This document shows positions 6,684-51,492 of a DNA stretch of 64,000 nucleotides, one piece after another. Source of the stretch: an uncultured Bacteroidales bacterium (GTDB lineage Bacteria; Bacteroidota; Bacteroidia; Bacteroidales; P3); the NCBI GenBank assembly GCA_905236645.1, contig CAJOMZ010000012.1, forward strand, positions 1 to 64,000. Direction: 5' to 3'. The notes beneath the pieces were generated by a model that saw nothing but the letters and a program-made list of their open reading frames with translations, searched no databases and was not told the DNA's origin. Within the stretch, counting starts at the first letter, position 1. Each line of letters begins with the position of its first letter. Position numbers and translations under genes: made by a program.

Positions 6684-6781
6684 GTTGACAATAAAACACT
6701 GGATATCAGCACGGTATGAGAAAACACCAAGACCGCACATAACTCGCTGTATGTCAGGTGCTTTGATGGGTCATCTTCGGT

Positions 6782-6874
6782 CGTTGTCCAGTCGTTGTCC
6801 AGTTGTTGTCCAGTTGTTGTCCAGTCATTGACTGGACAACAACTGGACAACGAGCGGACAACGACTGGACAACG
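6782..6874. repeat. Family A inverted tandem-array element, copy 1 (A1)
   Basis: Four 11-bp units (CGTTGTCCAGT x2, TGTTGTCCAGT x2), centre CATTG, then four inverted units (ACTGGACAACA/G, one AGCGGACAACG); 93-bp near-perfect palindrome centred at 6828. Confidence 0.97.
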
Positions 6875-7177
6875 AACGGTGTCGGTGCGGCGTTGGAGCG
6901 AAGAGGGGGCCTTGCTTCTCGGGCTGTGGCACGGGCGGTTTCGGGGACTGTCTGCGCGAGGCTGCGTTTTACGGGCTGCCGGATGTGGCATCAGGGGGGT
7001 CGGAACGGCGGTCGGTTTTTTTTCTTTGCACAATGGCTTCAGTATCGCGATATTTTTCGTAAATTTGCAGCAGCCTTTTTACGGGCTCTGCCCACTCAAC
7101 GCATTGATTGCTATGCTGTAATGCTCGATGCGGGGTGTTGGGGACTGTCCGTTTTGTGCAAAGTCTGTCGAATAGCA

Positions 7178-9065
7178 ATGAGAAACCAGTATCAAGAGCG
7201 CAGCACGGTTATCCGTATCATTTTCCTCACGGTGGGGCTTGTCTTCATCGTCAGGCTGGCCTTTATGCAGGTGTTCGACAGCGAGTACCGCCGCCAGGCC
7301 GACCGCCAGGCGCTGCGCCCCATAACGCAGTATCCGGCGCGCGGCTTGATATACGACCGCAACGGCGAGTTGCTGGTCTACAACGAGGCAGTGTACGACC
7401 TTATGGTCATTCCGCGAATGACGAAGGGGCTGGACACCAATATGTTCTGCCGCGTGATGGGCATCAGCCGCGACGAGTTCGACGCCCGTATGCGCAAGGC
7501 GTGCAAGTATTCCACCTATTCGGCGTCGCCCTTTATGAAGCAGGTGTCGAAAGAGGAGTACGGCTCGTGGGAGAACAGTCTCTACAAGTTCCGCGGCTTC
7601 TACGTGCAGCAACGCACGCTGAGGGTTTACGACAAGCCCATTGCGGCGCACGTGCTGGGGTATGTGGGCGAGGTGGACCAGAGCGAGTTAGACGCCGACA
7701 GGTTCTACAGGCAGGGCGACTATATAGGCAAGAGCGGCCTGGAGAAGTCGTATGAGGAGGTGCTGCGCGGCGTCAAGGGCAAGCGCATAATGCAGGTCGA
7801 CGTCCACAACCGCGAGATAGGCTCGTATATGAACGGCGCCTTCGACACGATGGCCGTGGAGGGAGGCAACCTCTACACGACGCTCGATGCCACGCTGCAG
7901 GAGTATGCCGAGGGGCTGATGGCCAACAAGCGCGGAAGCATCGTGGCCATAGAGCCGTCGACGGGCGAGGTGCTGGCAATGGTCAGCGCGCCGGGCTACG
8001 ACCCCAACCTGCTGGTGGGGCGCGTGCGCGGCGAGAACTACAGCAATCTGCTGCAGGACATCTCGCGCCCCCTGCTCAACAGGGCCCTGATAGAGCACTA
8101 TCCGCCCGGATCGATATTCAAGGTGGCCCAGGCCGTGACAGCGCTGCAACTGGGGGTCATCTCGCCAGGGTCGGGCTTTGTGTGCGACAAGTCGCTGGTG
8201 GGTTGCCACAACCATCCCAGCGCCCGCTCGGTGCAGGAGGCCATCAAGATGAGCTGCAACCCCTACTTCTACCAGGTGTACCGCCGTGTGATACAGCAGG
8301 GCCGGTACAAGAGCATCTATAAGGACAGCCCCTACGGGCTGACGGTGTGGCGCGACTATATGCTGCGCTTCGGCTTCGGGCAGAGGATGGGCATCGACCT
8401 GCCCGCCTCGGGCATCACGCCGGGCTTCATTCCCGACACGGCGTTCTACAACAAGAGGTACGGCCGCGAGCGCTGGGCGTTCTCGACCATCTACTCCAAC
8501 AGTATAGGCCAGGGCGAGGTGACGGTGGTGCCCATCCAGATGGCTAACCTGGCCTGCATCGTGGCCAACCGAGGCTATTACATTACGCCCCACTTGGTGC
8601 GAAGGCTATTACATTACGCCCCACTTGGTGCGATACTACGGGCCCGACTCGGTGCGCAACGAAGAGTTCTACACAAAGCACGAGACGGGCATCGGCAAGG
8701 CCTACTTCGACATTGCCGCCAACGGTATGTACGATGTGGTGCACACGGCCGGCGGCACGGCGCGCAGGGCCAACATACCCGACATCGACATCTGCGGCAA
8801 GACGGGTACGGCGCAGAACATCGGCGAGGACCACTCGGTGTTCATCTGCTTCGCCCCCAAGGACAAGCCGAAGATAGCCGTTTCGGTCTATGTGGAGAAC
8901 GCCCGCGGCGGTGGCGGATACTGGGCGGCGCCGATTGCGAGCCTGGTGGTGGAGAAGTACATACGCGGCGAGGTGACGCGCAAGGATGTGGAAAAGATGT
9001 ACCGCGAGGCGGCGCCTTGCCAGAAACTGCCGCTGACCAAAGTGGCCAAAAAGAAAAAGAAATAA
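7178..9065 (+). pseudogene. mrdA: penicillin-binding protein 2 with frameshift from a 31-bp tandem duplication (pseudogene, phase-variable allele or assembly artefact)
   Basis: Frame 1 (7178-~8633) has the PBP2 dimerisation domain, SIFK and SCN motifs; frame 2 (~8603-9065) has KTGTAQN (~8799) and the C-terminus; the two join in frame if one 31-bp copy is removed. Confidence 0.9.
8572..8633 (+). repeat. exact 31-bp tandem duplication inside mrdA
   Basis: AGGCTATTACATTACGCCCCACTTGGTGCGA at 8572-8602 and again at 8603-8633. Confidence 0.98.
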
Positions 9066-14312: not shown

Positions 14313-14411
14313 TACCAAATTCCTACCAAAGTTTACTCAAAGTCCTATCAAAGTTTTACCAAAGACTACTTTCTTGAACTTTAATAAGTGTTTAATCAGA
14401 GTTTTATAAGA
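14313..14411. repeat. degenerate 11-bp-period array, possible Family C
   Basis: TACCAAATTCC/TACCAAAGTTT/ACTCAAAGTCC/TATCAAAGTTT/TACCAAAGACT, then a loosely inverted ACTTTAATAAG/TGTTTAATCAG/AGTTTTATAAG. Confidence 0.5.
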
Positions 14412-14612
14412 GTATTTTCCAGCCCAGATACGGTGCTGTTACAGAGCGCTTCAAAAACAGACTCTGACAATCAATTAGTTGCAAATGTTAAAATTTTTAG
14501 CGTTTTTCGTGCAGAAATGCAGAAAACTTTTATGCAAATACTGTTTCGTTTTTGCCCCTTTAAAAGGTGCTTGAAACGCCGTTGAAACGGCGGTCGGAAA
14601 AAGTGCGGAACA

Positions 14613-25561: not shown

Positions 25562-25694
25562 ACCGTACCAACACCGCTCGTTGTCCAGTCGTTGTCCAGT
25601 TGTTGTCCAGTTGTTGTCCAGTTCCAGTCATTGACTGGACAACAACTGGACAACAACTGGACAACGACTGGACAACGAGCGGACTTGGTACGGT
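25562..25694. repeat. Family A inverted tandem-array element, copy 2 (A2)
   Basis: Core 25579-25677: four TTGTCCAGT units each way around CCAGTCATTGACTGG; outer arms ACCGTACCAACACCGCTCG / CGAGCGGACTTGGTACGGT pair with 2 mismatches. Confidence 0.97.
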
Positions 25695-31290: not shown

Positions 31291-31413
31291 GCACCATACC
31301 AACACCGTTCGTTGTCCAGTCGTTGTCCAGTTGTTGTCCAGTTGTTGTCCAGTCATTGACTGGACAACAACTGGACAACAGGACAACGACTGGACAACGA
31401 ACGGTGTTGGTGC
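31291..31413. repeat. Family A inverted tandem-array element, copy 3 (A3)
   Basis: Outer arms GCACCatACCAACACCGTTCG / CGAACGGTGTTGGTGC; four TTGTCCAGT units each way; one right-arm unit lacks ACT. Confidence 0.96.
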
Positions 31414-42098: not shown

Positions 42099-42323
42099 TT
42101 TAAAACGATTTTTTGATTGTTCTTAATGCTTTTTTCTGATGCAAAAATACACTTTTTTTTAATCGTGTAACCTTTATTTGCTTTTTTTATTGTGATTTTA
42201 TGTTTTTTTATGTTTTGTTGTCCGGGGCTGTTTTTGATGTTTAGTACCGCCAAAGGGCTTTTTATTGCACCCTGCCGTCGAGGGACGTCCGAGGCACTTT
42301 CGAGGGACCAACTCCGTCCGTTG

Positions 42324-42406
42324 TACAATATATGTACAATACTTGTACAATACTTGTACAATTGGTAAACGTACAAATATTGTACAAGTATTGTACATAT
42401 ATTGTA
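42324..42406. repeat. Family B inverted tandem-array element, copy 1 (B1)
   Basis: 36-nt left arm TACAATATATGTACAATACTTGTACAATACTTGTAC; 11-nt loop AATTGGTAAAC; complementary right arm with one mismatch; left flank ACCAACTCCGTCCG. Confidence 0.97.
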
Positions 42407-51321: not shown

Positions 51322-51410
51322 AGCGGGATATTTTGTGCAAAGGTACGAAAAATAAATCATATCCTGCTCCCGTTTTCTTCGGAAAATGTCCGTACCAACT
51401 CCGTCCGTTG

Positions 51411-51492
51411 TACAATATATGTACAATAGTTGTACAATACTTGTACAATTGGTAAACGTACAAATATTGTACAAGTATTGTACATATGTATG
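51411..51492. repeat. Family B inverted tandem-array element, copy 2 (B2)
   Basis: TACAATATATGTACAATAGTTGTACAATACTTGTAC, loop AATTGGTAAAC identical to B1, complementary right arm; flank GTACCAACTCCGTCCG. Confidence 0.96.

Follow-up and report, generated by a model that had tools for sequence, protein, structure and literature searches.

The hairpins B1 and B2, found in a stretch of 64,000 nucleotides of DNA from an uncultured gut Bacteroidales bacterium (the whole stretch is called the window, and the source genome G000), are probably members of a dispersed family of non-coding, hairpin-forming repeats. The repeats are REPIN- or MITE-like in kind: outer terminal repeats enclose 11-bp units, which are paired round a short loop. 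They would descend from a non-autonomous element that spread through an ancestral genome, and would have been homogenised later. The copies are numerous, have an architecture in common with those of a second family (A), occupy old and fixed positions and change their sequences in step, with inversion of the loop.

Architecture and copy number of the B elements

A sequence-only reading of the window had placed B1 at positions 42324-42406 and B2 at 51411-51492, and both hairpins are found there. These coordinates enclose the hairpin bodies, but they leave out the outer repeat ACCAACTCCGTCCG to the left of each (42307-42320 and 51394-51407). From left to right, B1 is composed of ACCAACTCCGTCCG TTGTACAATAT ATGTACAATAC TTGTACAATAC TTGTAC-AATTGGTAAAC-GTACAA ATATTGTACAAG TATTGTACAT..., and the sequence of B2 is almost the same. 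The parts of the two copies are:

42293-42306, minus strand: putative remnant of the one-sided tail, left of B1; the B1 loop appears inverted in relation to it, and the loop in the sister species has the opposite orientation
42307-42320, plus strand: left outer (terminal) repeat of B1, ACCAACTCCGTCCG, common to nearly all B copies of the genome
42321-42359, plus strand: left arm of B1, 11-bp units TTGTACAATAY
42360-42370, plus strand: loop of B1, AATTGGTAAAC, the same in 37 of 37 extracted copies of its own genome
42371-42406, plus strand: right arm of B1, without right outer repeat
51394-51407, plus strand: left outer repeat of B2
51408-51446, plus strand: left arm of B2
51447-51457, plus strand: loop of B2, AATTGGTAAAC
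51458-51490, plus strand: right arm of B2, truncated

In both window copies the right arm is truncated, with its outer part lost. The window contains 26 matches to the B unit when 11.0 are expected, a number reached in 0 of 100 shuffles, and the z-scores of DNA hairpin folding, taken against shuffles, are -9.5 for B1 and -5.5 for B2. Each copy lies between divergent genes: B1 has a DUF1573 gene on one side and a ferredoxin/2-oxoacid oxidoreductase operon on the other, and B2 is flanked by radC and secDF.

A full B copy forms a palindrome some 118 bp long, in which the outer repeat ACCAACTCCGKYCG is followed by three to five TTGTACAATAC units per arm, the loop, the return arm and CGGACGGAGTTGGT, often with a one-sided tail thereafter. 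The ends of aligned copies (ACCAAC...GTTGGT) are terminal inverted repeats, and the element is without coding capacity. An intact copy, L010, forms an almost unbroken stem of more than 50 bp, with an energy of -86.7 kcal/mol when folded as RNA.

A genome-wide search for arrays with the loop, which the sequence-only reading had proposed as a check, gives at least 41 B copies in G000, B1 and B2 included, of which 37 were extracted and four (L049, L050, L055, L060) came from a search with the tail; an exact search for the B unit gives 47 matches. The loop, with its GG, is invariant: every copy that was read carries AATTGGTAAAC, the four from the tail search included. Other copies of the hairpins thus exist, and in relatives the arrays change coordinately rather than at random. 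The earlier remark that the loop is itself one unit long is correct for B1 and B2 but does not extend to relatives, where the loop has 10 nt in the sister species and 2-9 nt in others. Ten contigs of the draft G000 assembly break off about 100 bp or less from a B array, and array counts in draft genomes, those of relatives included, are therefore lower bounds. When B1 was compared with phages and plasmids, no match was found.

Families with a common design

Family A, with 437 exact units in G000, had been described as matching B in period and design in spite of its different unit, and this likeness goes further than the hairpin: A and B, assigned here by regular expression, have in common the outer repeat ACCAAC-CCG and the one-sided tail CCTTGAAGGCCTGAGGATGAGGCGGTTATGAAAC, and hybrid copies (L130 and L128, from the sister species and another rumen MAG) have inner units of B type and outer units of A type. 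By these signs A and B are one superfamily. The window contains three A copies and an array of a further family, C:

6770-6885, no strand assigned: A1, family A copy (TTGTCCAGTYG units); the locus is occupied in the sister species
25566-25690, no strand assigned: A2, family A copy, with changed units in both arms in the sister species
31296-31412, no strand assigned: A3, family A copy with full outer repeats
14313-14413, no strand assigned: family C array (TACCAAAGTCC / TTTAATAAGAG, 11-bp period), decayed, in a divergent spacer

The C array of the window has a decayed hairpin and gives no significant fold; a similar GGTACCTTGAA junction is present in the sister species, where the family has many relatives. 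All 23 significant matches to the tail in G000 follow directly upon an array (20 B and 3 A), and none among them is without one. In a position-weight search, for which 94 control spacers supplied the threshold (their 99th percentile), the tail is on one side only in 22 of 30 G000 B arrays. That the tail is an insertion target older than the arrays was rejected as first choice, since no tail without an array was found.

When tandem arrays are collected with TRF from 855 kb, made up of stretches of the sister species and the window and with genes called by a simple script, the period is 11, 22 or 33 for 118 of 241 non-coding arrays and for 0 of 61 coding arrays. The units in this set include TTGTCCAGTTG, TTGTCCGCTTG, TTGTACAATAC, TACCAAATTCT, TCACTCCCCTC and ATGGTTAAACG. 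Elsewhere in the genus the arrays are built of different 11-mers, among them TAGATGACTCC, TTCAACCATCG and GATGCCTGGAT. A cruder ORF mask calls some arrays coding, and the gene model applied to the 855 kb is judged to be better. Arrays like A occur in Prevotellaceae/Bacteroidaceae MAGs, and the exact A/B pattern, with at most one mismatch, in 12 of 190 genomes of the family. The unit is close in length to one helical turn of underwound DNA; this is a plain fact of length, and any meaning attached to it stays conditional.

Several further repeats were observed. Examination of Y1_Tnp loci brought up further arrays of unrelated 11-mers in G025 (L257:2747-2835, a TCAACGATATT hairpin), G022 (L265:31-127, CCCTATCATCT/TGGTAGGTAGT) and G118 (L261:1030-1102, GATGCCTGGAT). 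G163, of the same family and another genus, has elements bounded by terminal inverted repeats, TTTGCC...GGCAAA (L243 and L300-L309, for example L306:10436-10519), which are exactly 111 or 133 bp long (45 + 22n) and contain three or four palindromic 22-bp units; the units are phased A/T tracts (AAAAAACATATGTTTTTT, AAAAAACCTGCTTTTTT), with the design of A and B in an unrelated sequence. The window also has a perfect 31-bp tandem duplication, AGGCTATTACATTACGCCCCACTTGGTGCGA, at 8572-8633.

Fixed sites and changing sequences in relatives

The sister species, uncultured Bacteroidetes RUG13410 (G109), belongs to the same genus and can be aligned over most of the window, with an identity of about 90%. 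The comparison covers this one sister genome, in MAG assemblies and over about 790 kb, or about a third of its length. All 14 loci for which both flanks can be located (10 B and 4 A, flank identity about 90%) are occupied in the sister species, including one B locus that the script marked 'partial' and that was counted as occupied, its left end being cut and the array present; no empty site was found among the 14. In the more distant G052, of the same genus, a TTGTACAGTAT array lies in the spacer that holds a TTGTACAATAC array in G000, with a flank identity of 80-88%.

To see how sequences change at such sites, consider A2, where 8 base pairs are changed on both sides between the two species and 1 pair is intact in only one of them. 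Among 30 copies in the sister species the loop is AATTGTAAAC in 20, AATTGTGAAC in 2 and AATTGGTAAAC in 8, with a single G in 22 of the 30. The loop, invariant within G000, is thus mostly AATTGTAAAC in the sister species, and it is inverted in relation to G000 at 4 of the 10 orthologous B loci, those of B1 and B2 included. Since copies are more alike within a genome than the same site is between two genomes, the array sequences are judged to evolve in concert, at positions that are old. At two orthologous spacers the array is B-like in one species and of C type in the other (L162 and L193, from G053 and G109; L080 and L190-L191, from G025 and G109), which could be due to chance or to replacement of units at a fixed site.

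The in-step change is compatible with conversion from copy to copy, with copying from one arm to the other and with selection, and the data do not separate these. The change could instead reflect selection by a co-evolving binding protein. The arrays would then offer a sequence-specific protein a site at every helical turn, all on the same face of the DNA, and the unit would shift throughout a species together with the specificity of the protein. Units that are uniform within a genome and different between species, and the palindrome TTGTACAA inside each B unit, agree with such a scheme; it is nevertheless improbable, because the unrelated unit families A, A', B, C and D of one genome would require several proteins, and because the loop, and not the unit alone, changes in step.

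If the copies are homogenised repeats, as is preferred here, a non-autonomous element would have given rise to them by spreading in an ancestor. They would sit in gene spacers, mostly between divergent promoters, where a hairpin is tolerated, and would now be homogenised between copies and between arms via hairpin or cruciform intermediates, with gene conversion, template switching and inversion as candidate routes of exchange. With SbcD present, extruded hairpins could be broken and repaired. An absence of SbcCD as the cause of long-palindrome survival was rejected, SbcD being present in both G000 and the sister species. We infer past mobility from dispersion alone, since neither an empty site nor a target duplication was found; at the ends of the copies no consistent duplication was seen by eye. 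A search of the Y1_Tnp family gave no transposase with matching ends.

It has also to be asked whether the copies are REPINs mobilised by the Y1 (RAYT) transposase of G000. The hairpin design would suit this, and G000 and the sister species have three Y1_Tnp genes each, but it is unlikely, in that such genes are also found in members of the genus which lack these units, and no array flanks the genes examined, the nearest A or B array being well over 1 kb away. A linked RAYT/Y1 transposase accordingly finds no support.

Gene placement and known systems

In the sister species, 28 of 50 A, B and C arrays are located in divergent spacers, which account for 23% of spacer length (p = 6e-7) and for 24-34% of spacers by count (p = 1e-6 to 1e-3). 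The share is 10 of 16 for B, 9 of 15 for C and 9 of 19 for A, where the effect is weakest (A alone, p 0.02-0.17). All 16 B arrays are at least 85 bp from a start codon, and none is between convergent genes. Family D 11-mers (TCACTCCCCTC; L141:3677-3903, L210:8258-8498 and the left flank of L035) were observed in tandem-gene spacers only, 0 of 7 being divergent, in contrast to A, B and C.

The divergent placement speaks against terminators; it agrees as well with hairpins being tolerated where they are not transcribed as with a function in the spacers of promoters. A transcription terminator or structured RNA, for which the strong fold as RNA speaks, is very improbable: beside the missing convergent arrays and the position of B1 and B2 between divergent genes, nothing in Rfam exceeds the gathering score, with only sub-threshold, mostly miRNA-type matches to the long AU-rich stem.

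A regulatory or topological role, on the other hand, is a serious rival to homogenised repeats. In the negatively supercoiled spacer of divergent promoters, the palindrome would extrude as a cruciform, or bend with its units in helical phase, and would buffer supercoiling or recruit an HU-like protein, so that selection on the host keeps it. The excess in divergent spacers, the distance of B arrays from start codons, the retention of period 11 while the sequence changes and the retention of sites in both species all point this way. A precedent is an inverted repeat of 77 bp that lies upstream of the Porphyromonas gingivalis capsule operon and has been investigated as a potential cruciform to which HU binds (PMC3969353), and the bacterial genome periodicity of about 11 bp is commonly linked with the pitch of DNA under negative supercoiling (PMC4132750). 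Such a role is possible, though it falls well short of probable: divergent spacers may merely tolerate insertions, the effect is weaker in A alone, and many copies are truncated. Homogenised repeats, too, are possibly of use to the host, as supercoil-absorbing or nucleoid-protein-binding, topological spacers.

Among known systems, REPINs and REP-BIMEs (PMC3116915, PMC3733652) are likewise short, extragenic, non-coding inverted hairpin doublets in high copy number, and many extragenic hairpin copies are present here. The present elements differ in lacking both a terminal tag (GTAG or CGTC) in the aligned copies and an adjoining RAYT (the examined Y1_Tnp genes are not flanked by repeats), in arms made of tandem 11-bp units, in their preference for divergent spacers and in the in-step replacement of units at fixed sites; because tag and RAYT are lacking, they are not filed as REPINs. 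As in MITEs, terminal inverted repeats go together with a lack of coding capacity. BrickBuilt of P. gingivalis, a MITE with an internal minisatellite, is also a non-coding Bacteroidales element with terminal inverted repeats and internal tandem repeats, but its repeats are direct and of 23 nt, whereas here two arrays of 11-mers form an inverted pair; it has 19 copies in one strain, its terminal repeats resemble known IS, and three of four testable copies have target duplications (PMC4596501). The 77-bp repeat is similarly a long palindrome and possible cruciform in a Bacteroidales 5' intergenic region, but at a single locus and not in a dispersed family, and the accessible part of its description does not mention 11-bp units (PMC3969353). 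In the literature on 11-bp or 11-mer repeats, palindromic repeats and REPINs, searched outside subscription papers, no description of these elements was found. In their working they are most like REPINs or MITEs and are assigned to neither; they are a variant of intergenic palindromic repeats, apparently undescribed.

One may speculate, with a good deal of doubt, that there is a class of intergenic palindromes bounded by terminal inverted repeats. Their hairpin and helical period (11n bp) would be conserved and their sequence free, and they would be stable in site, responsive to supercoiling and rewritten in their units genome-wide. The elements provide a natural data set for the concerted evolution of short bacterial palindromes, one that allows counts of orthologous sites, of units specific to a species, of inverted loops and of paired changes in the arms. 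Should it be the helical period that is preserved, the role of the periodicity of about 11 bp and of long palindromes would be directly testable in gut Bacteroidales.
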